Origin: Candidatus Stramentimicrobium fermentans
GTDB lineage: Bacteria; Atribacterota; Phoenicimicrobiia; Phoenicimicrobiales; Stramentimicrobiaceae
Assembly: GCA_012520575.1 (NCBI GenBank)
Contig: JAAYOB010000024.1
Coordinates: 1 to 16,555, forward strand
Reading direction: 5' to 3'
DNA length: 16,555 nucleotides
The translations under genes were made by a program, and so were the position numbers. Positions within the stretch are counted from its first letter, which is position 1, and every line of letters begins with the position of its first letter. This document shows positions 2,590-16,555 of the stretch, piece by piece. A model generated the notes under the pieces. It searched no databases and was not told the DNA's origin. It worked only from the letters and a program-made list of their open reading frames with translations.

Positions 2590-2608
2590 GAGAAAATAGA
2601 ACTTAAAA

Positions 2609-2986
2609 ATGAAAAAAATTTTAATAGAAGTAGATAATATTAAAGTAAGAGCGAAATTGAATGACAGTACAACGGCTGAAAAGATATGGGATTTATTGCC
2701 TCTGGAAGGAAAAGTAAATACCTGGGGCGATGAGATATACTTTTCCATCGGCGCTAAAATTGACTTGGAGCAAGGTGCGAGCGCTGTTGTTTCCATAGGG
2801 GATTTAGCTTATTGGCCGCCGGGAAATGCTTTTTGTATTTTTTTTGGAACAACTCCTGCTAGCATTGGTGCTGAAATAAGGGCAGCCAGTGCCGTTAATA
2901 TTTTCGGTCATATTATTGGTGATTATGAAGCGTTTAAAACGGTTAAGCCGAGTACAAGTATTATAATTACAAAAATCACCAATTAA
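2609..2986 (+). CDS. Cyclophilin-like fold protein (TM1367 family)
   Basis: Encodes 125 residues with no signal peptide or membrane segment. The sequence matches the small bacterial cyclophilin-like family typified by Thermotoga TM1367: LNDSTTAEKIWDLLP near residues 18-32, WGDEIYF near 39-45, and GDLAYWPPGNAFCIFFG near 64-80, which is the family's best-marked block. These proteins have a cyclophilin beta-barrel but lack the usual peptidyl-prolyl isomerase active site, and their role is not established. The gene begins 19 bases after the transketolase stop, with AGGAGA at 2588-2593 overlapping that stop codon, so the two are probably co-transcribed. The Shine-Dalgarno to ATG spacing is long (about 15). 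Family assignment is firm; function is unknown. Confidence 0.82.
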   Translation: MKKILIEVDNIKVRAKLNDSTTAEKIWDLLPLEGKVNTWGDEIYFSIGAKIDLEQGASAVVSIGDLAYWPPGNAFCIFFGTTPASIGAEIRAASAVNIFGHIIGDYEAFKTVKPSTSIIITKITN

Positions 2987-3071
2987 AAAAGAAAAAAGGA
3001 GGGGATAAAAGGATAAAGTTTCGTTGTTCCCTAGGTTCCATTTAAATGATTAAAGAAAGGATTCTAATTAG

Positions 3072-4022
3072 ATGAAAAAAAATATTGTTTTATTGTTAAT
3101 TATTTGCTCACTATTTGTTTCAATAAATGGGTTTGCAACAGAGAATTATCCTACAAATCCGATAAGAATAATTATTCCCTTTAATCCCGGCGGAGGATCA
3201 GACATACTTACAAGAGCCGTTGATAAATATTTAAATCTTGAACAACCGCGTGTTTTAATTTATATACCAGGTGCCTCAGGGTTGCTTGGAGCCATGGAAA
3301 CACTTAAAGCACAACCGGATGGCTATACCATACTTGCACATAATTCTAATAATATTGTTGCACAATATCTTTCGGATGCAACAGATATTATGTTATGGAG
3401 AGAGCTTGAACCCATTTGTGATATAGTTATGGACCACACAGTCCTAACCACTAACAAGATGACCGGCTGGACCAAATTTGAAGATGCTCTGAATTATGCA
3501 AAAGAAAACCCCGGTAAACTGACATGGGGAGTAACTGGAGCAAGAGGTCTATCAGCAGTCAATATGCTAATGGTTCAGGAGGCAACTGGCGTAAAGTATC
3601 AAATGGTTCCTTATGATGGGGGGGCTGCTACAAGAACTGCTCTTTTAGGTGGACATATTGATCTGGAAACTACTACCGTTTCAGATGCTCGCGCTGTTAT
3701 AGAAAGTGGAGACGCAATCCCGTTAGCGGTACTAGACGATACAAGATCTCCTTTTTTACCGGATGTGCCAACATTACAGGAAATCGGTTATGATGTTTTG
3801 GCGTTTCAACCTAGATCATATTATGCACCCCCAGGTACACCCGAAGCTATCATAAAAAAACTAGCTGCGGCGTTTGAAGAAGTTTCTAAAGAAGAAGGTT
3901 TTATTAAAGATATGGAAGAATTATATTTAGTTGTACGATTTAGAGGCCCAGAAGGTTCAGGCCAGGTTTCTGAAGATATGTACAATGATTGGAAACCAAT
4001 ATTTGACCGCTATTTCCAGTAA
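3072..4022 (+). CDS. tctC: Tripartite tricarboxylate transporter substrate-binding protein (TctC/Bug family)
   Basis: Encodes 316 residues, normal for the family. Residues 1-22 are a signal peptide: MKKN, a hydrophobic core and a likely cut after GFA. There is no lipobox cysteine at the cut, so the protein should be soluble in a periplasm. The mature N-terminus has the family block IRIIIPFNPGGGSDIL (31-46), and later PGKLTWG, PYDGGAATRTALLGGHIDL and FLPDVPTLQEIGYD, all characteristic of Bug proteins. It should capture a carboxylate or related small anion and hand it to TctA/TctB. The start has AAAGAAAGG about 10 bases upstream. The rest of the transporter follows, but only after a decayed insertion element. 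The ligand cannot be predicted: Bug proteins bind many organic acids. Confidence 0.93.
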   Translation: MKKNIVLLLIICSLFVSINGFATENYPTNPIRIIIPFNPGGGSDILTRAVDKYLNLEQPRVLIYIPGASGLLGAMETLKAQPDGYTILAHNSNNIVAQYLSDATDIMLWRELEPICDIVMDHTVLTTNKMTGWTKFEDALNYAKENPGKLTWGVTGARGLSAVNMLMVQEATGVKYQMVPYDGGAATRTALLGGHIDLETTTVSDARAVIESGDAIPLAVLDDTRSPFLPDVPTLQEIGYDVLAFQPRSYYAPPGTPEAIIKKLAAAFEEVSKEEGFIKDMEELYLVVRFRGPEGSGQVSEDMYNDWKPIFDRYFQ

Positions 4023-4045
4023 CATATCTAAGTTTAAGCAAGAAC

Positions 4046-4067
4046 TCCCCACCCGTAAGGGTGGGGA
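4046..4067. repeat. IS200/IS605-type left-end stem-loop
   Basis: A perfect 9-base stem, TCCCCACCC (4046-4054) and GGGTGGGGA (4059-4067), closes a GTAA loop. It begins 24 bases after the tctC stop and ends 50 bases before the transposase start. G/C-rich hairpins of this form mark the ends of IS200/IS605 elements, where TnpA recognises them. No T tract follows, so it is not a typical intrinsic terminator, although a hairpin placed just after tctC could still protect or limit the transcript. Confidence 0.65.
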
Positions 4068-4117
4068 TGAGAACAAGTTCCTGTATCATCCGTACGCACT
4101 TTGATATAGACATAGGC

Positions 4118-4516
4118 ATGAAACTCAGAGATCGAGCCCATACTGTATACCATATAGTCCGGATAACACTTATCCACAGTGTGATACTCTTTAAAGTTGT
4201 CCAAGACTACCTCACAAGATAAAACTCTTAGAGGTAAGGGAATATTATACGGATTGGAGTTCTTAGAAACCGGCCGGCGTAGACTTTAATCACATTCACT
4301 TTTATATATTGAATATCTGCTTAAATACACAGTGAGTAAATAGTGTATCCTAAAGCACTGCGACAAAAGCCCAATTGCTTAAAGAAGGCCTGCTGGGACG
4401 ATAAAGGTATCTGAGCGAATGGTTATTCTGCCTTAACTGTCGGCATCAATGAGAAAGTCATACTGGCATGTAAGAAAAAGATACGGAAAAGACAGATTTT
4501 ATTAGTTGATGAATAG
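4118..4516 (+). pseudogene. tnpA: Broken IS200-type transposase TnpA (Y1 HUH family)
   Basis: Pieces of the transposase appear in order in all three frames. From ATG 4118, MKLRDRAHTVYHIV gives the family's N-terminal block, stopped at 4220-4222. A second frame from about 4222 has VREYYTDW and GVDFNHIHFYI, containing the His-hydrophobic-His metal motif (HIH, 4291-4299). A third frame from 4320 has LKYTVSK followed by a stop. The first frame returns from 4358 with LRQK, LKKACWDDKGI, a stop where Trp is expected, then ANGYSALTVGINEKVILACKKK and a final TAG at 4514-4516. The total span of 399 bases matches an intact gene of about 133 codons. The expected catalytic tyrosine, in the helix after GINEKVI, appears to be Cys. 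With at least three frameshifts and several stops it cannot make active protein. Confidence 0.8.
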
Positions 4517-4520
4517 GAGG
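4515..4520 (+). promoter_or_regulatory. Ribosome binding site deciding the TTG start of tctB
   Basis: AGGAGG lies five bases before TTG 4526. It overlaps the transposase-frame stop codon TAG (4514-4516). That stop is in the same frame as tctB, so no longer tctB protein is possible. The next in-frame ATG is at residue 21 and would remove most of the first membrane segment, which supports the TTG. Confidence 0.7.
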
Positions 4521-4525
4521 GTGTT

Positions 4526-5050
4526 TTGGTAAATATTAAAAATGACTTAATATTAGGTAGTGCAATTTTTATTTTTAGTCTTTTCATGCTGACGGAGAGT
4601 AAAAAAATTCCTTCGGGCATTCTTGACGAACAGATTGGTTTTGTTGCGAGTCCAAAAGGATATCTAATTGTTATTGCATCTGTGTTACTATTGCTATCTA
4701 GTATTTTATTATTAAAAACTATAAGAGCTATGTATTTAAATAAAGGATGGATTAAAACAAGTAAAGAAATATTTCTGCCCAAAGAAGTATTTATTTCGAT
4801 GATCTTATTATTATTTTTTGTTTCTACACTTAATATTTTTGGATTTTTTCTTAACAGTTTTATCTTATTAGTAATTACTATGACAATTTACTATCTGAAA
4901 GAAAAGAATGTGGATGTGAACAATAAGAAGCAGTTAGCCTCATTGATACTAAAGTTTTCTATATTGTCAATCATTAGCTTAATTGCAATTCAACAGGTTT
5001 TTGTCAGATTATTAAATGTTTATTTGCCTACCGGAATTTTAGGATTTTAA
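4526..5050 (+). CDS. tctB: Tripartite tricarboxylate transporter small membrane protein (TctB)
   Basis: Encodes 174 residues, close to the usual TctB length. Hydrophobic stretches lie at about 8-23, 46-64, 87-102, 104-124 and 139-160. The layout, and the C-terminal block VFVRLLNVYLPTGILGF, are those of the TctB (DUF1468) family. TctB pairs with the large TctA protein in the inner membrane and is needed for substrate transport powered by an ion gradient. It is read from TTG with a good Shine-Dalgarno just before it. TctB sequences diverge widely, so the assignment relies on topology, the C-terminal motif and position between tctC and tctA. The region upstream is a fossil insertion element, so the original tctC-tctB junction has been replaced and co-transcription may now be weaker. 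Confidence 0.85.
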   Translation: MVNIKNDLILGSAIFIFSLFMLTESKKIPSGILDEQIGFVASPKGYLIVIASVLLLLSSILLLKTIRAMYLNKGWIKTSKEIFLPKEVFISMILLLFFVSTLNIFGFFLNSFILLVITMTIYYLKEKNVDVNNKKQLASLILKFSILSIISLIAIQQVFVRLLNVYLPTGILGF

Positions 5051-5108
5051 AATAAGCGAGTTTTCTTTTAAATTCTTTTTATCAATATTTGCCATAATCT
5101 TTAACAAA

Positions 5109-5120
5109 AAGGATGGTGAT
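5109..5120 (+). promoter_or_regulatory. Strong ribosome binding site for the TTG start of tctA
   Basis: AAGGATGGTGAT is close to the full anti-Shine-Dalgarno complement AAGGAGGTGAT, and ends five bases before TTG 5126. An ATG overlapping this site (5129-5131 region) is out of frame. This supports TTG as the start, the second TTG start in this transporter. Confidence 0.65.
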
Positions 5121-5125
5121 AATTT

Positions 5126-6631
5126 TTGAATGTTCTGCTGGAGGGATTTAAGTTTTTTCTAAATGATCCTTATACAATTTTAATTCTCATTTTTGGTGTC
5201 TTTTTTGGCATAATATTCGGATGTATTCCCGGACTGACCGCCACTCTCGGAATAGTACTTTTAATACCCTTTACTTATGTGATGTCTGCAGAATTAGGAT
5301 TGGCATTATTGATCGGAATTTATGTTGGGGGAATTAGTGGGGGCTTGATAACTGCAATTTTAATCAATATACCTGGTACACCTTCATCCATGGTCACGTG
5401 TTGGGATGGTTATCCAATGGCAAAAAAGGGATTAGCAGGCAGTGCACTATCACTAGGCGTCTTTGCATCACTGGTTGGTGGCACCTTCTCCGCTCTTGCC
5501 CTAATTTTCATTGCACCTCCGCTATCTAAAATTGCATTAAAATTTGGAAGTTGGGAATATCTTTCACTTATGTTATTAGGGATGAGTGTTGTCATTATGA
5601 TGACAGCAGACAACCCTTTAAAGGGGTTTATATCAGCATTTATAGGCATTGCTTTAGCAATAGTGGGAATTGATACTATCTCGGGGGTTTCCAGATTAAC
5701 CTTCGGCTTTTGGCAGCTTCAGGCCGGCCTTGAAGTGGTAGCTATTTCCATGGCTTTTTTTGCTGTCAGAGAAATGCTTGTACAAGTTAAAGGTTTTTAT
5801 TTGCATTCAACTATAGAGCAAAGAACTATTGAGGACAAAATTCCATTAATCCCCGATCGTGAAACCTTGAGAAATACAGGCCCAGCTTTTTTAATAGGGT
5901 CAGTGTATGGGACAATAATCGGTATGCTGCCCGGTGTAGGGCAAACCACGGCTGCTATGTTAACATACAATGCTACCAGGCAAATTTCTAAAAGGCCTGA
6001 TGAATTCGGAAAAGGAACTCCGGAAGGCATTGTCGCTTCTGAAACAGCTAATAATGCAGTAAATGGGGGTGCTTTAATTCCGCTTCTGACTCTGGGCATA
6101 CCGGGTGATATGGTTACGGCAGTACTGATTGGTGGTCTTATGATTCAAGGTATTAGACCAGGCCCATTACTATTCAGAACTAATCCTACGGTTGTAGGAA
6201 CAATTATGGTAGCTTATTTTTTAGCAAATATATTCATGTATATTTTGGAACTAGGTTTTATGAGAGTATTTGTTAAAATAATTAAGGTACCTCTTTCTAT
6301 TCTTTTCCCAATAATATTAATTTGCTGCATAATAGGCGTATATGCTCTTAATAATCGTGTTGCAGATTTATGGATTTTAGTGATATTTGGAATTATCGGT
6401 TACTTTTTGACCGAATGTGACGTCCCCATGCCGCCACTGATTTTAGGGTTTGTATTAGGCCAAATGGTCGAAAGAACTTTTAGGACCGCAATGTATGCAT
6501 CAGCAGGAGACCTGTTAGATTTTTTAAACCATCCTATCGCTTTGTCAATACTAATTATTTCTGTAATACTGGTACTAAAACCGTACCTTCCGAATATAGT
6601 AAAAATATTTAAAAATCAAATACCGGGGTAA
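5126..6631 (+). CDS. tctA: Tripartite tricarboxylate transporter large membrane protein (TctA)
   Basis: Encodes 501 residues, the usual TctA length, almost wholly hydrophobic with many membrane segments. The first half has GCIPGLTATLG (32-42) and NIPGTPSSMVTCWDGYPMAK (81-100). The second half repeats the theme with GMLPGVGQTTA (266-276) and PLLTLGIPGD, the internal duplication typical of TctA. TctA forms the translocation path in the inner membrane and works with TctB and the TctC binding protein. The start codon is TTG, backed by a near-perfect ribosome binding site. It lies 75 bases after tctB, a gap with no terminator visible. The conserved loops are intact, so the transporter should be functional despite the insertion element upstream of tctB. 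Confidence 0.95.
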   Translation: MNVLLEGFKFFLNDPYTILILIFGVFFGIIFGCIPGLTATLGIVLLIPFTYVMSAELGLALLIGIYVGGISGGLITAILINIPGTPSSMVTCWDGYPMAKKGLAGSALSLGVFASLVGGTFSALALIFIAPPLSKIALKFGSWEYLSLMLLGMSVVIMMTADNPLKGFISAFIGIALAIVGIDTISGVSRLTFGFWQLQAGLEVVAISMAFFAVREMLVQVKGFYLHSTIEQRTIEDKIPLIPDRETLRNTGPAFLIGSVYGTIIGMLPGVGQTTAAMLTYNATRQISKRPDEFGKGTPEGIVASETANNAVNGGALIPLLTLGIPGDMVTAVLIGGLMIQGIRPGPLLFRTNPTVVGTIMVAYFLANIFMYILELGFMRVFVKIIKVPLSILFPIILICCIIGVYALNNRVADLWILVIFGIIGYFLTECDVPMPPLILGFVLGQMVERTFRTAMYASAGDLLDFLNHPIALSILIISVILVLKPYLPNIVKIFKNQIPG

Positions 6632-6695
6632 ATCTATAAATTGAAATAAAATATAAGTAAAATACCTTAATTTAATAGGGTAGATAGGAAAAAAT

Positions 6696-7520
6696 ATGTC
6701 AAAAATAAAATTGAGTTATGTTGTTGCGACACCTGAACTGGCTATAAATGAAAATGTTACAGCTTATCAAGGAAAACTAGAAGAAGCATTTGAAAAACTT
6801 AAAATGCTCGGATATGACGGGGCAGAATTGATGCTCATTGATCCTAAGCGTTTAGAGTTGCAAGAAATTTTGAATTTATCTAAAAAATATGGAATAGAGA
6901 TACCTGTGATATGCACAGGAGAAGTTTTTGGACAAGAACACCTTTCGTTTATGGATCCAGATAAAAAGGTCAGAAATAATGCAATCGAGAGAATGAAAGA
7001 AATTATTGATTTTGCAGAACCGTTTGAAGCTCACGTCAATGTTGGTAGGCTTAGGGGCCGTTTTTACCCTGAAATACCTAAAGAAGAATCCCTAAGTTGG
7101 TTATACTCAGCTTTTGAACAGATTACCGATTATGCATCAGATAGAAATGTTTTTATAATTTTAGAGCCGATACCATACATCTTTTGTAACAATATCAACT
7201 CTACACAAGATGGCATAGAAGTCATTAAAAAAGTTAATAAAGATAATTTTAAACTTATGATTGATCTTATTAGTGTACACCTGGAAGATAAATCAATGGA
7301 AAGAAGCTTTAAAGAGGCCACACCTTATTTGAAACATATTCATATTTGTGATTCAAACCGATTAGCCCCGGGGTATGGGAACTTTGATTTTCAAAAAATT
7401 GTTTCTATAATAAAAAGCATAAACTACAGTGGCTACTTGTCCGTTGAGATAAAGCAATTCCCCGACAGAGATGTAATTCTAAAAGAGAGCATAGAATTAA
7501 TTAAACCGTTAATAAAATAA
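6696..7520 (+). CDS. Sugar phosphate isomerase/epimerase-like TIM-barrel enzyme (AP_endonuc_2 family)
   Basis: Encodes 274 residues, standard for the xylose-isomerase-like TIM-barrel superfamily. The expected metal ligands line up: E157 in IILEPIPY, D190 in MIDLISVH, H216 and D219 in KHIHICDSNR, and E251 in YLSVEIKQF. The early block MLGYDGAELML (about 37-47) is the usual second-strand signature. Relatives include hydroxypyruvate isomerase, ketose 3-epimerases, L-xylulose-5-phosphate 3-epimerase and some sugar-acid decarboxylases, so the reaction cannot be chosen from sequence. It lies 64 bases after tctA, with a modest AGGAAA before the ATG, and probably belongs to the same unit. Together with the upstream aldolase and transketolase it suggests catabolism of a sugar or sugar acid brought in by the TTT transporter. 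Confidence 0.88.
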   Translation: MSKIKLSYVVATPELAINENVTAYQGKLEEAFEKLKMLGYDGAELMLIDPKRLELQEILNLSKKYGIEIPVICTGEVFGQEHLSFMDPDKKVRNNAIERMKEIIDFAEPFEAHVNVGRLRGRFYPEIPKEESLSWLYSAFEQITDYASDRNVFIILEPIPYIFCNNINSTQDGIEVIKKVNKDNFKLMIDLISVHLEDKSMERSFKEATPYLKHIHICDSNRLAPGYGNFDFQKIVSIIKSINYSGYLSVEIKQFPDRDVILKESIELIKPLIK

Positions 7521-7797: not shown

Positions 7798-8928
7798 ATG
7801 TTATTTGGCAAAAGAATTACAAAACTTATAACAATAACAGTATTAACACTACTTGTAGTCGTTAGTTCTGCTGGAGCTGCAACATTTAAGCTCGGGGGTT
7901 TAGCAAACCTTAAAAGTGGCTATGGACAATCAATGGTTAGCGGTACCGCGTTAGCTATAAAAGAGATTAACGCAGCTGGTGGAGTTGATGGGGTAACGTT
8001 TTCGATTGATTGGCAGGATACCGAATCAAGTGCTGCTACCGGAAGAATGGCAGTACAAAAACTTATTTTTGATACCAAAATTGATGCTTTAATAGGCTGC
8101 CATGGCAGTACAGTTGTGCTGGCAGTTGAAGGATTAATTGCTGAAAATGAAATTGTTGAAATGGCAATGGGCAGTGCCTCCCAAGTTACCCAACTAGGCA
8201 ATCCTTGGTTGTTTAGAGTTAGGGAAGATGATGCCCTCACCGCAAAAGTGCTCGCCAATTTTACTGTTAATGAATTAGGATTAACCAAGATTGCAATTTT
8301 TCATATGTCGGAGCAATATGGAGTGGGCGGCAAAGATAATACGGTTGCAGCGTTAGCGGAATATGGTGTTGAACCTGTTGCAATAGAAGCACATAATCAG
8401 GGCGATGTTGACTTTTCTAGCCAGTTATTAAATATCAGACAGTCCGGTGCTGAAGCTATGATACTGTATTCCGGAATTCCTGATATTGGTATTTTGATTA
8501 AGCAAGCAAGGCAGCTTATACCCGGAATAGAAATTCTTAGCAGCAGCGTAGGAGCTACCGCACCCGCAATGGATGTTGCAGGTGAAGCAGGGAATGGTGT
8601 TTATGCTGTTGTTTCTTATAGTGAAGATAATCCAGATGAGAAGGTTCAAAAGTTTGTTCAAGCTCATGTTGAAGAATTTGGAGTGAAGCCATATGACTTT
8701 TTTGATCCTTTGGCATATGATGCTGTATACTTGCTTGCAGAGGCGATAAAAATTGCCGGTAGTACTGATCATGCTGCAGTACGAGATGCCCTTCATGAAA
8801 TACAAGGCTATAAAGGAGCTACCGGCTTGGAGTATTATGTCCAACCTAATGGGGAAACAATCAACGAATTACTGTTAATTCAAATTCAAGACGGTAAACA
8901 TCAAGTTGTTGATACCATCAAAGGCTAA
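7798..8928 (+). CDS. livK: Branched-chain amino acid-type ABC transporter substrate-binding protein (LivK-like)
   Basis: Encodes 376 residues, the normal length of periplasmic-binding fold type I proteins of the LivK family. Residues 1-27 are a signal peptide with a basic start, a long hydrophobic core and the cleavage-like SSAGA; there is no lipobox cysteine. The mature start (FKLGGLANLKSGYGQSMVSG, 30-49), then ALAIKEINAAGGVDGV and the VQKLIFDTKIDALIGCHGS region, are characteristic. It should trap a ligand outside the inner membrane for LivHMGF. The family binds amino acids but also amides, urea and aromatic acids, and the hydrolase genes downstream hint at an amide-type ligand. AAGGAGG precedes the ATG. 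A strong terminator directly follows, which would make this protein in excess of the membrane components. Confidence 0.93.
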   Translation: MLFGKRITKLITITVLTLLVVVSSAGAATFKLGGLANLKSGYGQSMVSGTALAIKEINAAGGVDGVTFSIDWQDTESSAATGRMAVQKLIFDTKIDALIGCHGSTVVLAVEGLIAENEIVEMAMGSASQVTQLGNPWLFRVREDDALTAKVLANFTVNELGLTKIAIFHMSEQYGVGGKDNTVAALAEYGVEPVAIEAHNQGDVDFSSQLLNIRQSGAEAMILYSGIPDIGILIKQARQLIPGIEILSSSVGATAPAMDVAGEAGNGVYAVVSYSEDNPDEKVQKFVQAHVEEFGVKPYDFFDPLAYDAVYLLAEAIKIAGSTDHAAVRDALHEIQGYKGATGLEYYVQPNGETINELLLIQIQDGKHQVVDTIKG

Positions 8929-8931
8929 TTT

Positions 8932-8982
8932 AATAAAGGGTGAGGGAGTAATTTTGGCTCCCTCACCCTTTATTTATTTTTT
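8932..8982 (+). terminator. Intrinsic terminator/attenuator between livK and livH
   Basis: A perfect 17-base stem is formed by AATAAAGGGTGAGGGAG (8932-8948) and CTCCCTCACCCTTTATT (8958-8974) around a nine-base loop, followed by a T-rich run ending in six T (8977-8982). This is a textbook factor-independent terminator. It starts three bases after the livK stop and ends 18 bases before livH, and no promoter is visible in between. It therefore most likely acts as a partial terminator, letting livK be made in large excess over the permease genes. Confidence 0.92.
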
Positions 8983-9000
8983 AAAACAACGAGGAATATT

Positions 9001-9885
9001 ATGGATATACAGATAGTAATGCAGCAAGTTATTTCTGGGTTGGCAATTGGATGTATCTACGGATTGATTGCATTAGGTTATAGTTTAATATTTAATGCAG
9101 TCGATGTTGTTAACCTTGCCCAGGGCTCATTCGTAATGGTTGGTGCATTTGTCTATGGGGCTTCATTTGTGAGATCATACGGTTGGCCGGCATTTCCTGC
9201 TTTTGCGGGCTTAATTATTGTCATGGCTGTATTCGGAATGGTTTGTGAGTTTTTTTTCTATCGCCCTCTTAGATACGCCCATGTTCGTACTAAACTGGTT
9301 GCTTTATTAGCGTTAAGCATGCTTTTAAATAATTTGGCTTTAATCATTTGGGGACCATATCCCATGGGATTAGAAGGTCCCTTCGGCACGAAGGTACTGT
9401 CAATTAAGGGAGCAACTATCCTCTACCAAAATATTTACATTATTGCCATTACAATACTCCTTCTTATATTGCAGTTCTACATCTTTTTTCACACAACCTT
9501 GGGAAAAGTTCTTCGAGCTGTAGCTCAAGATAAAGATACCGCTTCCCTTATGGGGATTGAGGCTAACCAAGCGGTTTCTTTTACCTTTGCCTATAGTTCA
9601 ATACTGGCTGGTATAGCAGGTATGCTCATAGCTCCCGTCTTCACAATCGGGACAGGATTATCCCAATTAGGATTTATGGGTTTTGGGGCTTGCATAATCG
9701 GTTCTTTCACAAATGTTTCCGGAGCCTTAATAGGGGGGATTATACTTGGTCTTTTCGAAATGTTTAGCGCTAGCTATATCTCATCTTTATACAAATCAGC
9801 AATTGTTTATCTTTTGATAATTGCGTTCTTATTGATGCGTCCACAGGGCTTGCTTGGTAAAAAGGAAGAAGTAAGTGGACTGTAA
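9001..9885 (+). CDS. livH: Branched-chain amino acid-type ABC transporter permease (LivH-like)
   Basis: Encodes 294 residues with about eight hydrophobic segments, typical of LivH. The first helices carry VISGLAIGCIYGLIALGYSL, followed by NLAQGSFVMVGAF, both hallmark LivH blocks. The cytoplasmic coupling region includes LGKVLRAVAQDKDTASLMGI, and the protein ends with the family motif LLMRPQGLLGKK. LivH forms the inner-membrane channel with LivM. GAGG lies just before the ATG. The gene follows the livK terminator and begins the tight block livHMGF. A complete gene with no oddities visible. Confidence 0.95.
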   Translation: MDIQIVMQQVISGLAIGCIYGLIALGYSLIFNAVDVVNLAQGSFVMVGAFVYGASFVRSYGWPAFPAFAGLIIVMAVFGMVCEFFFYRPLRYAHVRTKLVALLALSMLLNNLALIIWGPYPMGLEGPFGTKVLSIKGATILYQNIYIIAITILLLILQFYIFFHTTLGKVLRAVAQDKDTASLMGIEANQAVSFTFAYSSILAGIAGMLIAPVFTIGTGLSQLGFMGFGACIIGSFTNVSGALIGGIILGLFEMFSASYISSLYKSAIVYLLIIAFLLMRPQGLLGKKEEVSGL

Positions 9886-9925
9886 AAAGGATTGTTAAAG
9901 TAATCTATAAGGAGGAATATAAAAC

Positions 9926-10909
9926 ATGTTTAAAAAAGAACGCAATATTGCTCTAGCGATAATTTTTTTGATTTTAATTATTACTCCAATTTTTGATAGA
10001 GCACCCTACCATATATTTGTATTAAATATGGTTGCTATAAATATTATATTAGTCATGGCTTTAAACTTCATTTTGGGATTTGCCGGCCAAGTTTTTTTAG
10101 GAACTGTAGGGTTTTATGCTATCGCATGCTACTCTACTTCTTTGCTAACAGTTAACTATGGTCTCTCGTTTTGGCAGGCAGTTCCTTTTACAATAATTGT
10201 TACAAGTATTCTTAGTTTAATTTTGGGGTTACCGACATTAAAATTAAAAGGATTTTATCTAGCCCTCATGTCTTCAGGCTTCATATATATAGTGTTAGAT
10301 ATTTTAAGAAACTGGAAATCTTTCACTGGCGGTGTCTGGGGGATAATGGGAATACCCAGACCGTTTATTGGAACAACCCTTGTTAGATCCGACTTGCATT
10401 TTTATTTCATTGCAATTACCATCACATTGTGCCTGGCTATTTTTGCTGTATTAATTGAGGATTCCAAATTTGGTCGGGCTTTTAAGGCAGTTCGGGATGA
10501 CCAGTTGAGCTCTGAGATGTTAGGAATAAATTCTCATATGACAAAAGTGTTAGCTTTTGTAATGTGCGGTATTTATACTGGATTTGCCGGCAGTCTCTTT
10601 GCAAGTTTACAGGGATTTGTCAGTCCGGAGATGTATACCTTTGAGTTAAATGCAACGTACATGTGCATGTTGGTAGTCGGGGGACTAGGTTCTGTACCAG
10701 GTGCCGTTTTGGGGGCCACTGTCTTAACTATAACTACCGAATTATTACGATTTCTCAGAGAAAAATACCTTACCTTCTATGCATTATTAATTATTATTGT
10801 TCTTATTTACATGCCGGGAGGCATTATTACTTATGTTTACCAAATAATAGGCAGATTGTTTTCTCTAAAGAATAAGCCTTCACAAAAGGAGGAGATAAAT
10901 GTCAGATGA
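9926..10909 (+). CDS. livM: Branched-chain amino acid-type ABC transporter permease (LivM-like)
   Basis: Encodes 327 residues, hydrophobic throughout, partner of LivH. Family landmarks are the early NFILGFAGQVFLGTVGFYAI region (LivM blocks resemble 'G..GQ.SLG...F'), LGLPTLKLKGFYLALMS, FGRAFKAVRDDQLSSEMLGI and MLVVGGLGSVPGAVLGA near the end. A strong AAGGAGGA lies about 10 bases before the ATG. It lies 40 bases after livH, and its last 11 bases overlap the start of livG, so translation of the two is probably coupled. The C-terminal tail after the last helix is short and basic. Confidence 0.95.
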   Translation: MFKKERNIALAIIFLILIITPIFDRAPYHIFVLNMVAINIILVMALNFILGFAGQVFLGTVGFYAIACYSTSLLTVNYGLSFWQAVPFTIIVTSILSLILGLPTLKLKGFYLALMSSGFIYIVLDILRNWKSFTGGVWGIMGIPRPFIGTTLVRSDLHFYFIAITITLCLAIFAVLIEDSKFGRAFKAVRDDQLSSEMLGINSHMTKVLAFVMCGIYTGFAGSLFASLQGFVSPEMYTFELNATYMCMLVVGGLGSVPGAVLGATVLTITTELLRFLREKYLTFYALLIIIVLIYMPGGIITYVYQIIGRLFSLKNKPSQKEEINVR

Positions 10910-11687
10910 TATAATTTTAGATGTAAAAGATATAGGCCTCCATTTTGGTGGAGTAAAAGCCGTGGATGGTTTGAGCTTTTCAATCAAGAAAAACCAGATC
11001 CATGCCTTAATTGGCCCTAATGGCTCTGGAAAAACAACAACTCTCAACCTCATTACGGGGGTTTATCAACCCCAATGGGGTGAAGCAAATTTCGATGGAA
11101 AAAACATTTCCAGGATGCCAAGAGCAGACATTGCCAAAATTGGAATTACTAGAACTTTTCAAAATCTACGTATTTATAATACGCTAACCGTTTTAGAGCA
11201 TGTTTTGGTTGGTGATTATATAAATAGCAATACAGGTTTTTTTAGTAGTGTTTTTAAATTACCTGCAGGTAGATTGGATGAAAAAAGAGCCGTAAGTAAG
11301 AGTATGGAACTCTTAGAAAAGGTTGGGCTAGCAGATAAAGCCCATTCCTTGGCAACAAGCCTTTCTTATGGACAAAGGCGATTACTGGAAATTGGTCGAG
11401 CACTTGCGGTAAAGCCAAAATTGCTATTTCTTGATGAACCGGCTGCCGGCATGTCCAGTAACGAAATTGAGCAGCTTATTGAATTGCTGAGATTGCTCAA
11501 GAAAGAAGGCATGACCATAATGATTATTGAACACCGTATGAAATTAGTAATGAATGTAGCTGATTGGATAGTTGTACTTAATTATGGTAAAAAAATTGCT
11601 GAAGGCACTGCAGAGGAAATACAGAATCATGAAGAAGTAATAGAAGCGTATCTAGGCAAAAGCCACCAAAAGATAAGTGTAGCGTAG
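10899..11687 (+). CDS. livG: Branched-chain amino acid-type ABC transporter ATPase (LivG-like)
   Basis: Encodes 262 residues, a complete ABC ATPase. Visible motifs are Walker A GPNGSGKTT (39-47), Q-loop FQN (Q88), the signature LSYGQRR (155-161), Walker B LLFLDE (175-180) and the switch histidine in IIEHRM (H212). The segment AGRLDEKRAVSKSMELL after the Q-loop is the insertion that separates LivG from LivF. It powers import through LivHM as a heterodimer with LivF. The ATG lies inside the end of livM, with AAGGAGG (10886-10892) ahead of it. The final tail NHEEVIEAYLGK is typical of LivG. Confidence 0.96.
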   Translation: MSDDIILDVKDIGLHFGGVKAVDGLSFSIKKNQIHALIGPNGSGKTTTLNLITGVYQPQWGEANFDGKNISRMPRADIAKIGITRTFQNLRIYNTLTVLEHVLVGDYINSNTGFFSSVFKLPAGRLDEKRAVSKSMELLEKVGLADKAHSLATSLSYGQRRLLEIGRALAVKPKLLFLDEPAAGMSSNEIEQLIELLRLLKKEGMTIMIIEHRMKLVMNVADWIVVLNYGKKIAEGTAEEIQNHEEVIEAYLGKSHQKISVA

Positions 11688-11715
11688 TATAAGAAAGGGA
11701 AAGGAGTTTATATTA

Positions 11716-12423
11716 ATGCTAAAATTGGAAAATACTTGTGCTTATTATGGTCAAATTCAAGCTCTTCATGATATTAGTATAGAGGTTAAAAAAGGTGAAA
11801 TAGTATGTTTGATTGGTGCTAATGGAGCTGGGAAGACAACTACCATAAATACTATAACCGGATTTTTAAGAAGCTGTTCAGGAACAATTTCTTATTTGGA
11901 TCAAAATATCAGAGGCATGAGTATGTCCGCTATCGTTAAAAAGGGCATTTCATGTGTTCCTGAAGGAAGGCGCATTTTCCCAAAAATGACGGTAATGGAG
12001 AATCTGGAATTAGGGGCATATGTGCATAAAAAAGATTACTCCGGAACAAAGAACATTTTGGAAAAGATATGGGAAATGTTTCCTGTTTTGTATGAAAGGA
12101 AAAAACAGCTTGGTGGTACTCTAAGTGGCGGAGAGCAGCAGATGCTGGCAATAGCTAGAGCAATGATGAGCCGGCCAAAATTAATTCTTATGGATGAGCC
12201 TTCAATGGGTTTAGCGCCTATAATAGTTGAGCAAACATTTAAGTCAATTCTTAAAATTAAGGAAGAAGGCACCACAATTTTATTGGCAGAACAAAATGCA
12301 CAAATGGCTTTTGAAATTTCAGATCGTGCATACTTGCTTCAGACGGGAAATGTTGTTATGAGTGGTCCACCTTCTGAACTAGCATGCGATCCTCAGGTTC
12401 AGCAAACTTATTTAGGCGGGTAA
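11716..12423 (+). CDS. livF: Branched-chain amino acid-type ABC transporter ATPase (LivF-like)
   Basis: Encodes 235 residues, the usual LivF length. Motifs are Walker A GANGAGKTT (34-42), VPEGRRIFPKMTVMENL (81-97, a LivF hallmark), the signature LSGGEQQ (136-142), Walker B LILMDE (156-161) and AEQN (191-194) at the switch position. LivF proteins normally carry the EQN form there instead of histidine, so this is not a defect. It completes the importer. It lies 28 bases after livG with an AAAGGAG ribosome binding site, and 58 bases before the hydrolase genes, with no terminator between, so importer and hydrolases are probably one unit. Confidence 0.96.
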   Translation: MLKLENTCAYYGQIQALHDISIEVKKGEIVCLIGANGAGKTTTINTITGFLRSCSGTISYLDQNIRGMSMSAIVKKGISCVPEGRRIFPKMTVMENLELGAYVHKKDYSGTKNILEKIWEMFPVLYERKKQLGGTLSGGEQQMLAIARAMMSRPKLILMDEPSMGLAPIIVEQTFKSILKIKEEGTTILLAEQNAQMAFEISDRAYLLQTGNVVMSGPPSELACDPQVQQTYLGG

Positions 12424-12481: not shown

Positions 12482-13138
12482 ATGAATAACATGGTAGATT
12501 TGTTTAATAAAGCACGCATAGTAGATCTTTCTGAGAGGTTAGTTCCCGGAGAATATGACCGGAGACTGGAGATACGGCCTTTTAAAATATATGCTGGTGA
12601 AATCATGCATGATGTAGATATGATGAGTCATATAGGCACCCATGTGGAAGGCCCAAGTCATTACATTACGCCTTGTTTTAATAAAGATTCGAAGGACATT
12701 AGCGACTTACCCATACAAAAATTTTTAGGTGAAGGTATCTTTGCAGACCTCTCCGGTTTAGGACCCAAAGAAGCAATAAGTAGTAAATTTCTTAAAGAAA
12801 TTGGAGTAAAGAAAGATGATATAGTTATAATGGGTAATAGCAAATATATGGAAGAAGATAGAAATTATCTCGCGGCTGAAGCAGCAAAATGGATGGCAGA
12901 AATAGAAATCAAAATGTTGGGAATGGACCAAACTTTTCGAATTGAAGAAATATCCAGGCCATTAGATCAGATGTTTACTCACCGCTATTTATTGGAAAAA
13001 GATATACCAATCATAGAACGAATGACTAATTTATCAGACTTAAGGCAGAGACGATTCTTTTTTATAGGTATTCCAGTAGCGATTGTTGGATTGGACTCAT
13101 TTCCCATCAGGGCAATTGCTCTAGAAAATGTTATATAA
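12482..13138 (+). CDS. Cyclase-family metal-dependent hydrolase (kynurenine formamidase/isatin hydrolase superfamily)
   Basis: Encodes 218 residues, a usual length for this family. Near the N-terminus, VDLSERLVPGEY is followed by the metal-binding motif HIGTHVEGPSH at 50-60 (H50, H54, E56, H60). The family pattern is HxGTHxDxPxH; here the acidic position is Glu, not Asp. LGMDQT and the closing IVGLDSFPIRAIALEN resemble the family's C-terminal half. Known members hydrolyse amide bonds (arylformamide, isatin) using Zn or Mn. The first ATG is favoured by AAAGGAG 10 bases before it; a second ATG lies at 12491. The next gene overlaps its end by 11 bases if the ATG at 13128 is used. Placed after livF, it probably acts in the cytoplasm on the imported compound. 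The substrate is unknown. Confidence 0.82.
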   Translation: MNNMVDLFNKARIVDLSERLVPGEYDRRLEIRPFKIYAGEIMHDVDMMSHIGTHVEGPSHYITPCFNKDSKDISDLPIQKFLGEGIFADLSGLGPKEAISSKFLKEIGVKKDDIVIMGNSKYMEEDRNYLAAEAAKWMAEIEIKMLGMDQTFRIEEISRPLDQMFTHRYLLEKDIPIIERMTNLSDLRQRRFFFIGIPVAIVGLDSFPIRAIALENVI

Positions 13139-13814
13139 GGGTTTAAATAATTTGAATAAAAGAATCGGTCTAATCCATAGTAATAGAATTGCTATGGAGG
13201 TTCTGAATAAAGAAATTATTGCTAACTTAAAAGGTATAGATATCCTTAACTTTCTCGATGAGAGTATAGTGGTTGAGATAAGAAAGTCCGAAGGGATAAA
13301 CCCATTAGTGAAATCCAAATTTACTAGGATGGTTCAATCAGCTATTGAGACTTCAGTCGATTTGATTTTGGTTAGTTGTTCAAGTATTTCTTCTTTAACT
13401 CATAGTATGCCGGCTAATATATCGGTGCCGATAATTAATGTTTATGAATTGTTTTTTAAAGAGATGGTTAAAGGAGAATCACGTTTTTTAATCCTTGGAA
13501 CCGGCTCTTCAGCTATTGAAGCAGTAAAAAACGGCCTGGAAACAGAGAGTAGCAATACAAAAACAAAACCACTGATAAAGACAATTAACTGTATGCAAAA
13601 TCGTGAAAAGAAATTCCTTACTGGCTCTGATGAATACTATCAAAACATCGCTTTATCCATAGAAGATATATTATGTGAACAAAATTTCGATAAAGTGTTA
13701 TTGGCACAATTATCAATAATCCCTTCCATTAAATTTTTAAGAAAAGATTTACAAAAGAGAATCTTTAATGCAATTCCATTTGCAATCAAACATATTAAAA
13801 GAGTGCTTTACTAA
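13128..13814 (+). CDS. Asp/Glu/hydantoin racemase-family protein
   Basis: Encodes 228 residues from ATG 13128. From TTG 13152, which has AAGGG about 10 bases upstream, it would be 220 residues and begin MNKRIGLIHS, the usual start of this family. That start is the better candidate. The first active-site block LILVSCSSIS holds C84 (numbered from the ATG); VPIINVYE and FLILGTGSSAIEA follow as in the family. The second block, KVLLAQLSIIPS (189-200), has Gln194 where two-cysteine racemases have Cys. Members include aspartate, glutamate and hydantoin racemases, maleate isomerase and arylmalonate decarboxylase. A single-cysteine form may be a decarboxylase, isomerase or one-base enzyme instead of a racemase. 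It overlaps or abuts the cyclase-family gene, so the two are surely co-expressed. Confidence 0.75.
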   Translation: MLYKGLNNLNKRIGLIHSNRIAMEVLNKEIIANLKGIDILNFLDESIVVEIRKSEGINPLVKSKFTRMVQSAIETSVDLILVSCSSISSLTHSMPANISVPIINVYELFFKEMVKGESRFLILGTGSSAIEAVKNGLETESSNTKTKPLIKTINCMQNREKKFLTGSDEYYQNIALSIEDILCEQNFDKVLLAQLSIIPSIKFLRKDLQKRIFNAIPFAIKHIKRVLY

Positions 13815-13945
13815 CTGTGTTTTAATTGATAGGTAAAGATAAGATACATTTAGATAATATTGATTGATATGATTTGAGTAGATAATTGCTGAAATATTAA
13901 AAGTAAATTAATGCATTCGAAATTTTTATAATTGAGAGGTAAAAA
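13815..13945 (+). other. AT-rich gap before the M20 hydrolase gene
   Basis: These 131 bases carry no gene and no terminator. Promoter-like pairs (for example TTGATA 13826-13831 with TAGATA 13851-13856, spacing 19) are weak, so a separate promoter for the last two genes is possible but not supported. GAGAGG lies about 8 bases before ATG 13946. Confidence 0.35.
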
Positions 13946-15199
13946 ATGATTAATGCAAGTCTAATTGCAAAATTAAAAGAAACAACTTGTAAATATGAAA
14001 ATGAAATGGTTAGCTTATTAAGTAAGCTAGTTTCTATTCCAAGCGTTTCCGGCGAAGAAGCAGAGATGCAAAAGGCAGTATTTCAATTATTCTCATCATT
14101 AAAAGGAGAAACAACTAAAATCCCGATGAGGGAAAGCTTGCGAGAAGACCCTAAATATGCTTCGGGTGTCAATAGTGCTTTCGAAGATAGACCGCAAACC
14201 CGTTTTTTCTGGAAAGGTAAGGGTGGAGGCAAAAGTTTAATATTGTGTGCCCATACGGATGTTGTTCCAGCTGGAAACTGGAAGGAAGCCTTTAAACCCA
14301 AGATAGAAGGTGACCTGCTTTTTGGAAGAGGAGCAGTTGATGACAAAGGGTCGATTGTATCAATTTATTATGCTTTAAAAGCATTGCAAGAAATGAATAT
14401 AGAGCTCGAAGGAGATGTGGAGGTCCATTTAACAAACGAAGAAGAGGTAGGGATGGCCGGTGCCCTTGCTCTGGTTAGAGAAGGCTTTAAAGCTGATGGA
14501 GTTCTGGTTGCCGAACCAACAGACCATCAAATATTTGATGCCGGTAGGGGATGCCTACAGTTTATGATTGAAATAAAAGGTAAACAATCTCATCTTGGTA
14601 AAAAAAGATATGGTGTGAGTGCTATTGAAAAAGCATCCAAAATTATTGAATCACTTGTTCAATACGAAGACCACTTGATTGACATCGGAAGAGGTTATCC
14701 TCATTTCGAAAATTATAAATATCCCGGACAAGTCAATATAGGGAAAATTCATGGAGGAAGCTTTTTTTCGATAGTTCCAGATAATGTAGTACTAGAAGGG
14801 GGAGTGGGATTTTTACCTAATAAGGAATTAGAAGAAATTGAGACCGACCTTAAAAAAATTATTTTTGAGAATGAGGATGAATGGATTAAAAATAATACAA
14901 AAATTTACTTTGAAGGCCTCAAGAATGAACCCTATGCAATGCCTGATAACCACCCATTTACACTCAGTTTAAAAAACACATTGGAATCATTGGGAAGGAA
15001 AACAGATGTATTGGGTATGATGGCTTCTTGTGACGCAAGGTATTATTACAATCAGGGCAATATGCCTAGTATTGTTTACGGTGGAATAAATAACGGGCAA
15101 TCACATGCAGAAAACGAACATGTATATCTACCTGACATATTGGAAACAGCTGTTGAATATGCCTGCTTTATAATTAATTGGTGTAAAAAATATAATTAA
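13946..15199 (+). CDS. M20-family metallohydrolase (ArgE/DapE-type deacylase or peptidase)
   Basis: Encodes 417 residues, with the full di-zinc site of the M20 family. H103 lies in LCAHTDVVPAG, D132 in GAVDDKG, the catalytic/metal pair E166-E167 in NEEEVG, E190 in VAEPTD, and the last metal histidine H387 in GQSHAENEH. A dimerisation domain sits between about 195 and 310 (QFMIEIKGKQSHLGKKRYG begins it). These enzymes cleave amide bonds of N-acyl, N-succinyl or N-carbamoyl amino acids, or dipeptides. The ArgE/DapE-like form GRGAVDDKG is clear, but the exact substrate is not. No signal peptide is present, so it acts in the cytoplasm, presumably on the product of the imported ligand. The ThDP-enzyme gene begins 19 bases after the stop. 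Confidence 0.9.
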   Translation: MINASLIAKLKETTCKYENEMVSLLSKLVSIPSVSGEEAEMQKAVFQLFSSLKGETTKIPMRESLREDPKYASGVNSAFEDRPQTRFFWKGKGGGKSLILCAHTDVVPAGNWKEAFKPKIEGDLLFGRGAVDDKGSIVSIYYALKALQEMNIELEGDVEVHLTNEEEVGMAGALALVREGFKADGVLVAEPTDHQIFDAGRGCLQFMIEIKGKQSHLGKKRYGVSAIEKASKIIESLVQYEDHLIDIGRGYPHFENYKYPGQVNIGKIHGGSFFSIVPDNVVLEGGVGFLPNKELEEIETDLKKIIFENEDEWIKNNTKIYFEGLKNEPYAMPDNHPFTLSLKNTLESLGRKTDVLGMMASCDARYYYNQGNMPSIVYGGINNGQSHAENEHVYLPDILETAVEYACFIINWCKKYN

Positions 15200-15218: not shown

Positions 15219-16555
15219 ATGAAAACATGGGAACAAATTGCAAATATAGTAAAAGCCCAAGGGGTTGAATATGTATTTGGTATCGGTGATACTGACCTGC
15301 ATCTGTTTGCTGATCAATTGGATGGATTAACAGCTATAAACCTTCGCTACGAAGGATCTGCACCGCTTATGGCTATGGCATATTCTCGCTTAACCGGAAA
15401 GCCCGGAGTATGCAGTGGCAGTTCTGGGCCGGGAGTAGCCAGCCTAGTGCCAGGTGTGCTTGAGGCCTATTCGGGGTGTGTTCCCTTAGTTATCTTCGCC
15501 CCTTCAGTGGATCTGCAAACCGAAGGAATGGGTGAGTTCCAAGAATGTGATCAGAGAAAGATGATGGAACCCATAACCAAATGGAGTGAAAGAATTCCAT
15601 ATGTTGAAAGAATACCCTGGTTTGTGGAACGTGCTTTCTCAATTGCAATGAATGGTCAACCGGGTCCTGTCTTTCTGGAAATGCCCATCAATATTGGAGG
15701 AAAACTAACTAGCGGGATTATTGTTGATGCCGAACCTTATGAGGAGTATAGGACAATTCGCAAGATAAGGGTATCCGGAGATCCTGAATTAATATCACAA
15801 GCAGTTGAATTAATTTCTTTAGCAAAGCACCCTGTAGTGATTGCGGGAAATGGGGCGATATCTTCAGGGGCACAAGATGAGTTTAGAGAATTTATAGAAC
15901 TGCAAGGACTACCCTTTTTGACTACCCCTGGTGGAAGAGGAATAGTAGAGGAGACACACCCCTTGGCTTTGGGTGTATGCGGAATATATAGAACAGAGCA
16001 CGGTAAACAATATTATAAAGATGCCGATTTAGTTATCTCTATAGGAAGTAGAAACGAAGGTTTTCAATCACATAGCTTTGCAGATTTTCCTGATGGAGCA
16101 AAATTCTTACAGATTGACATATCTCCTTTCGAGATAGGGCGCCATTGGAAACCTGATGTGGCGGTAGTGGGAGATGCCAAGTTAGTATTACAACAGATTA
16201 ATACTGTAATTAGAGAAAAATATCCGGAGAAAGAGAATTATTTAGAAAGCATAAGAATAAAAAATCTAATTAAAAGTAAAAAGAATTATGAAAATCAGGT
16301 AGATAAAGAATGCTTAACAGAAGAAATTCCAATACCTGCTAAACGCATTGTTCATGAAGTAAGTCAGGTATTTGGCAAAAATACAATTTTAGCAAGCGAA
16401 AATGGATCTCAAGACACTTGGTCTTACTGTTATCCCTACTACACAGTTCAAGAGGGATCTATCTGTATACCCGTCGCTGAACAAACCTGCATGGGTATGG
16501 GGGTTGTTGGTGCCATCATAGCAAAACTAGTACGTCCTGACAAGAAATCAGTGTG
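15219..16555 (+). CDS. Acetolactate synthase-like thiamine diphosphate enzyme, 3' end outside window
   Basis: The frame is open from ATG 15219 to the window edge (445 codons); AGAGGGGGA lies before the ATG. The pyrimidine-binding domain covers about 1-165. Its catalytic glutamate is E45 in LRYEGSAPLMAMAYSRLTG, and SSGPGVAS follows. The middle domain covers about 185-330 (VVIAGNGAISSG, GGRGIVEETHPLALG, ADLVISIGSR). The pyrophosphate domain begins near 370 with ASENGSQDTW and PVAEQTCMGMGVVGA. The GDG...N metal motif should follow within about ten residues but lies beyond the edge. Relatives act on 2-oxo acids: acetolactate synthase, benzoylformate decarboxylase, glyoxylate carboligase. RYEGSA differs from the usual RHE of acetolactate synthases, and no regulatory subunit is near, so a catabolic decarboxylase or lyase is likelier than a valine biosynthesis enzyme. 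Confidence 0.88.
   Translation, partial: MKTWEQIANIVKAQGVEYVFGIGDTDLHLFADQLDGLTAINLRYEGSAPLMAMAYSRLTGKPGVCSGSSGPGVASLVPGVLEAYSGCVPLVIFAPSVDLQTEGMGEFQECDQRKMMEPITKWSERIPYVERIPWFVERAFSIAMNGQPGPVFLEMPINIGGKLTSGIIVDAEPYEEYRTIRKIRVSGDPELISQAVELISLAKHPVVIAGNGAISSGAQDEFREFIELQGLPFLTTPGGRGIVEETHPLALGVCGIYRTEHGKQYYKDADLVISIGSRNEGFQSHSFADFPDGAKFLQIDISPFEIGRHWKPDVAVVGDAKLVLQQINTVIREKYPEKENYLESIRIKNLIKSKKNYENQVDKECLTEEIPIPAKRIVHEVSQVFGKNTILASENGSQDTWSYCYPYYTVQEGSICIPVAEQTCMGMGVVGAIIAKLVRPDKKSV

Follow-up and report, generated by a model that had tools for sequence, protein, structure and literature searches.

A candidate accessory catabolic operon behind a Liv-type importer in an Atribacterota genome, possibly directed at an N-blocked or cyclic small acid

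Four genes that follow a Liv-type importer in this genome, encoding a cyclase-family hydrolase (cyc), a diverged Asp/Glu-racemase-fold protein (rac), an M20 metallo-deacylase (m20) and a ThDP-dependent enzyme (thdp), may form with the importer an accessory catabolic operon for an N-blocked or cyclic small acid. We put this reading forward tentatively, on the basis of sequence comparison. A hydantoin pathway, the analogy drawn in a preliminary description of this DNA, is not supported.

The window, i.e., the whole stretch of DNA that was analyzed, is the entire contig C2 (16,555 bases) from a bacterial bin of 1.58 Mb with 98% completeness. An archaeal origin was rejected, as no S8e ribosomal protein was found; a 16S gene was likewise not found in the bin. 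Contamination was ruled out as the source of the window, since in composition it ranks 41 among 47 stretches sampled from the genome and thus stays inside their spread. All 15 of its genes are carried on the plus strand; positions 7798–12423 belong to livKHMGF, after which cyc, rac, m20 and thdp come on that strand:

559..7520, plus strand: upstream run of transketolase, cyclophilin-like protein, TctC, TctB, TctA and IolO-like TIM-barrel epimerase, ending 277 bp before livK
7798..8928, plus strand: LivK-type substrate-binding protein (PF13458, 202 bits; anchors replaced in alignments, D to S and T to A)
8932..8974, plus strand: hairpin of 18 pairs followed by a T run, directly 3' of livK (pattern scan only)
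9001..9885, plus strand: LivH permease (PF02653)
9926..10909, plus strand: LivM permease (PF02653)
10899..11687, plus strand: LivG ATPase (PF00005 and PF12399)
11716..12423, plus strand: LivF ATPase (PF00005)
12482..13138, plus strand: cyclase-family metal hydrolase (PF04199; H50, H54, E56, H60, H167, E179)
13128..13814, plus strand: diverged Asp/Glu-racemase-fold protein with C84 and Gln194 (PF01177 at 30.5 bits, below the cut-off; alignments)
13946..15199, plus strand: M20 metallo-deacylase of the ArgE/DapE type (TIGR01910; metal-site motifs intact)
15219..16555, plus strand: ThDP-dependent enzyme of the acetolactate-synthase/oxalyl-CoA-decarboxylase superfamily, ended by the contig end (PF02776, PF00205; Glu45)

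Open reading frames were found exactly where the preliminary description had placed genes behind the importer, and profiles agreed with its family assignments, that of rac (PF01177) falling just under the cut-off; the gene order that it gave (cyclase, racemase-like protein, M20, then ThDP, directly after Liv) stands. The genes are closely spaced: 58 bp separate livF from cyc, cyc and rac overlap by 11 bp, and 131 bp and 19 bp precede m20 and thdp, respectively, so that from livH through thdp the intergenic gaps range from -11 to 131 bp. A purine-rich ribosome site is visible before most of the genes. Given the single strand and the tight spacing, it is plausible that livKHMGF, cyc, rac, m20 and thdp constitute one transcription unit. 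The hairpin with its T run between livK and livH is a candidate attenuator or terminator, which possibly sets the expression of livK above that of the remaining genes.

The cyclase scored 54 bits against PF04199 (cut-off 23), and alignment identified H50, H54, H60, H167 and E179 as invariant active-site positions, while position 56 is Glu, not Asp. The binuclear site of the kynurenine formamidase KynB consists of His50, His54, Asp56, His161 and Glu173, with His60 as the acid/base, and His54, Asp56 and His60 are strictly conserved in 336 KynB relatives (PMC4243253). The metal ligands of the window cyclase match this site (cf. PMC4243253) except for the Glu that replaces the bridging Asp56. As Glu56 is also found in the closest relative of the cyclase (48% identical, from an archaeal bin) and in several proteins from the same phylum, it can be taken as the mark of a subfamily rather than as an error. 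The cyclase resembles KynB, isatin hydrolase and metal-dependent hydrolases (PF04199; 8hmo, 1r61, 4co9, 4m8d) in its metal-site residues, its length and its best PDB matches, both by sequence, where the metal-dependent hydrolases 8hmo and 1r61 and KynB ranked at the top, and by a poor predicted model (pLDDT 50), which returned the same relatives first and isatin hydrolase lower. KynB itself (TIGR03035) was ruled out, both by Glu56 and by a score of 51.3 bits that is far under the equivalog cut-off of 223. Members of the subfamily with Glu for the metal-bridging Asp56 were observed at loci L034, L005, L006 and L007.

The racemase-like protein scored 30.5 bits against PF01177, for which the curated cut-off is 31; its relatives scored 68–71 bits, and blastp matches of rac to them were significant (down to 1e-13). 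No NCBIfam model matched. In an alignment that took in two racemases from the same genome (MurI and an Asp/Glu racemase) and two from related genomes, Cys84 of rac aligns with the N-terminal catalytic cysteine, the protein from the related genome G001 being offset, with its cysteine one column earlier. When rac was aligned by profile with glutamate and aspartate racemases of known structure, the N-terminal cysteine was confirmed. The column of the second cysteine is occupied by Gln194 (A-Q-L-S, as opposed to G-C-T-E, G-C-T-H and G-C-A-G in the racemases). This argues against hydantoin racemase and Asp/Glu racemase as assignments, since these require a catalytic cysteine in either half of the protein and rac keeps just one of the pair. 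In OpaE, the activity of Cys-to-Ser mutants fell to 4.8% and to 0.3% or less, indicating that both cysteines are needed for racemization (PMC12661438), and one-Cys members of the fold include decarboxylases such as AMDase (PMC4996985). Because racemization needs both cysteines and a lone cysteine goes with decarboxylation or one-sided chemistry, rac is probably not a racemase. It shares with the one-Cys superfamily members AMDase and EcL-DER the fold assigned by profile and the retention of one of the two cysteines; however, AMDase (Gly74/Cys188) and EcL-DER (Thr83/Cys197) keep the C-terminal cysteine, whereas rac shows the reverse arrangement, an N-terminal Cys and a C-terminal Gln. The predicted model of rac (pLDDT 34.5) was of no use, and a search for viral relatives of rac returned none.

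The Cys/Gln pair recurs in four relatives of rac from the phylum, and a Cys/His pair is present in two plasmid relatives. Together these proteins (L056–L059, L248:8040-8660 and L252:8007-8678) delineate a PF01177 subfamily with an N-terminal Cys and Gln or His for the second, which is repeatedly encoded next to GntR/TRAP, TIM-barrel, alcohol dehydrogenase or otnK/otnC genes and whose function is apparently undescribed.

The M20 protein scored 111 bits against PF01546 and 244.6 bits against the ArgE/DapE model TIGR01910, which is over the cut-off of 217.6, and its metal motifs are intact (HTD103, DDKG132, EEE165, EPT190, HAENE387). Carbamoylase/hydantoinase-type M20 proteins carry a motif of the HIEQG type. 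When the whole genome was scanned with TIGR01879 (hydantoinase/carbamoylase), four other M20 loci matched weakly and m20 did not match; an L-N-carbamoylase-type M20 was ruled out on this ground and because m20 has EPT, not HIEQG. By these profile matches, passing the ArgE/DapE cut-off and lacking a TIGR01879 match, m20 is classed as a general N-acyl deacylase type.

These assignments bear directly on the proposal that the genes serve hydantoin-type utilization, with the cyclase in place of the hydantoinase. The broad family order, a hydrolase, a PF01177 member and an M20 member clustered behind an importer, resembles that of hydantoin clusters, which combine a hydantoin racemase, a hydantoinase and an M20 L-carbamoylase. 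The window, however, has no hydantoinase gene, the PF01177 member has Gln at the second racemase cysteine, the M20 member is of the ArgE/DapE rather than the carbamoylase type, and a ThDP gene follows. The only near-full-length dihydropyrimidinase-like gene of the genome is on another contig (C45:66996-68333, L274), after an aspartase-like gene, and scored 315 bits against the D-hydantoinase model (cut-off 393). As the set is also not conserved, being unlinked in the phylum (see below), the hydantoin analogy fails on three counts, namely the second cysteine of rac, the type of m20 and linkage, and we consider this route highly improbable. A comparable set of roles is found in ectoine utilization, in which EutD opens the ring, EutA is a PF01177 protein and EutE is a deacetylase; the likeness to the window lies in the combination of a ring-opening hydrolase, a PF01177 protein and a deacylase, but rac matches no NCBIfam model and the hydrolase and deacylase of the window belong to other families (PF04199 and M20).

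In the alignment of LivK, the acidic residue that anchors the alpha-amino group is replaced by Ser and the Thr that anchors the alpha-carboxylate is replaced by Ala, roles that we take over from LivJ/Atu2422 (Atu2422 and pneumococcal LivJ) rather than from a structure of the window LivK. Both alpha-amino-acid anchors are present in two paralogues encoded by the same genome, the Liv proteins on contigs C44 and C6. This loss of the anchors fits an N-blocked ligand. Moreover, three of the five M20 genes in this genome (on C2, C17 and C44) adjoin Liv importers, for which a crude post hoc estimate of the chance probability is about 0.001. The replaced anchors and the adjacency of Liv and M20 genes together suggest a blocked amino group in the substrate. 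Hence, of the earlier proposal of an unusual, possibly amide-type substrate routed through a hydantoin pathway, the substrate survives as an inference, given a LivK devoid of the alpha-amino-acid residues, and the pathway does not. At the Liv/M20 locus on C17, 2-oxoacid:ferredoxin oxidoreductase-like genes lie nearby (read by eye from the sequence), and these neighbors fit amino-acid-derived fermentation.

In the mechanism that we propose for an accessory operon acting on an N-blocked or cyclic small acid, LivK would import a small carboxylic compound, the amino group of which is blocked by N-acylation or by inclusion in a ring; the cyclase-family enzyme would open or hydrolyze an amide or lactone; the M20 enzyme would take off the acyl group; the one-Cys rac would carry out a one-sided proton transfer, isomerization or decarboxylation rather than racemization; and the ThDP enzyme would cleave or condense the resulting 2-oxo compound. 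The statement in the preliminary description that no described pathway with exactly this set is known holds. Whether the genes define an undescribed route, comprising ring or amide opening by a Glu56-type cyclase, a lyase, decarboxylase or one-way isomerase step by the Cys/Gln rac, deacylation by M20 and carbon-chain cleavage by the ThDP enzyme, is more doubtful, and we regard it as rather unlikely.

The N and M domains of the ThDP enzyme are present, and the contig ends inside the gene. Its missing 3' end was sought among six TPP-C matches in the genome, none of which seems to be that end: one is partial and lies in the window's own transketolase gene, that on C4 lies in an open reading frame long enough to be complete, that on C17 comes after the oxidoreductase-like genes, and those on C11, C35 and C12 are well inside their contigs. 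None of the cut-offs of 25 listed equivalog models was passed. Glyoxylate carboligase has Val where ThDP enzymes otherwise have their catalytic Glu; since thdp keeps the Glu (Glu45, in RYEG), that enzyme was ruled out (199 versus 791 bits), as was an allantoin/glyoxylate route through Gcl and hydroxypyruvate isomerase, by Glu45 and by the M20 type.

The closest relatives of thdp count against the reading that we favor, as they and some PF01177 relatives occur in inositol or sugar-acid clusters. A close rival is an acid-sugar or cyclitol pathway, in which a sugar acid or an inositol derivative would be broken down jointly by the operon and by the tkt-cyp-tctCBA-epimerase genes that precede it: Tct and Liv would import the compound, the cyclase would open a lactone or ring, the TIM-barrel protein would epimerize, the ThDP enzyme and transketolase would cleave C–C bonds, and M20 would deacylate an amino sugar acid that carries an acyl group. 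In two related genomes, G001 from the same genus and G008 from the same family, the relatives of thdp (69–70% identical) are located after iolM-iolN-iolO, which are part of a run iolG-lacI-iolM-iolN-iolO (iolG being named in G008), and before a TRAP importer. The TIM-barrel protein of the window is nearest to IolO TM0416 of T. maritima, the upstream run contains TctABC, and close relatives of kdgK and eda are kept in this genome. PF01177 relatives of rac adjoin otnK/otnC in Agrobacterium vitis and Erwinia; these tetronate clusters share with the window a PF01177 protein that lacks the second Cys and, in A. vitis, TctABC and a TIM-barrel gene.

Several of these likenesses are incomplete. Unlike the Thermotoga-type inositol operons (iolG, iolM, iolN, iolO) of the related genomes, the window has a different importer, and iolG and iolN are missing from this genome, in which the match to iolM reaches only 27%. 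The thdp relatives of G001 and G008 are 91% identical to one another, compared with 69–70% to the window gene, which is accordingly a separate lineage and not a simple orthologue, and they stand about 400–500 bp from their flanking genes. The window has no otnK/otnC, and the tetronate-linked PF01177 proteins, only about 22% identical to rac, have His where rac has Gln. Liv importers and M20 deacylases would also be unusual in such a pathway. We therefore consider an acid-sugar or cyclitol substrate possible, although on the unlikely side, and the upstream run could belong either to the pathway of the genes from liv to thdp or to another one.

Two observations concern these neighboring genes in their own right. 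Thermotoga-type inositol operons with an attached ALS-like ThDP gene and TRAP importer were seen at L187, L188 and L189 (G001 and G008); the G008 copy of the ThDP gene is divided between the ends of contigs C132 and C22, which probably join. In the upstream run of the window, the cyclophilin-like protein (PF04126, 137 bits; 2609–2986) lies between the transketolase-family gene and tctC.

To return to the candidate operon for an N-blocked or cyclic acid, its gene set was not found elsewhere. Unlinked genes in relatives had been named beforehand in the preliminary description as one result that would refute its proposal. As judged by position among the matches listed and on draft contigs that are short, no two of the five families (cyclase, PF01177, M20, ThDP, LivK) came as near as 15 kb to one another in any of the phylum's 49 other genomes, an outcome that goes against that proposal. 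In these 49 genomes the cyclase, the PF01177 protein and the M20 protein have no close relatives, nor was the set repeated in 15 plasmid regions around cyclase and PF01177 matches, two of which are without annotation; Bosea and Salinigranum came nearest to it. A function shared by the five genes is thus not backed by linkage elsewhere. These results, and the unrelated genes that surround the close archaeal relative of the cyclase, would be expected if there were no common pathway and the genes, each with its own substrate, had become neighbors behind the Liv operon by chance. The single strand, the narrow gaps and the overlap of cyc and rac speak against this, as does a Bosea plasmid cluster in which a cyclase and an ALS-like ThDP gene share a strand, two genes apart; we judge chance assembly to be unlikely.

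Should the genes act together in a single pathway, this would identify a carbon source for an anaerobic lineage not yet in culture, probably the Atribacterota, which are common in subsurface sediment, and would give a function to the one-Cys racemase-fold subfamily that recurs in sugar-acid clusters; the present basis is one genome and one locus.

Among the plasmids, that of Salinigranum rubrum (L276) carries, on the strand opposite to its cyclase gene, Asp/Glu-racemase and aspartoacylase genes at a distance of 4–5 kb and aminopeptidase, AroM and DUF1177 genes at 6–8 kb.
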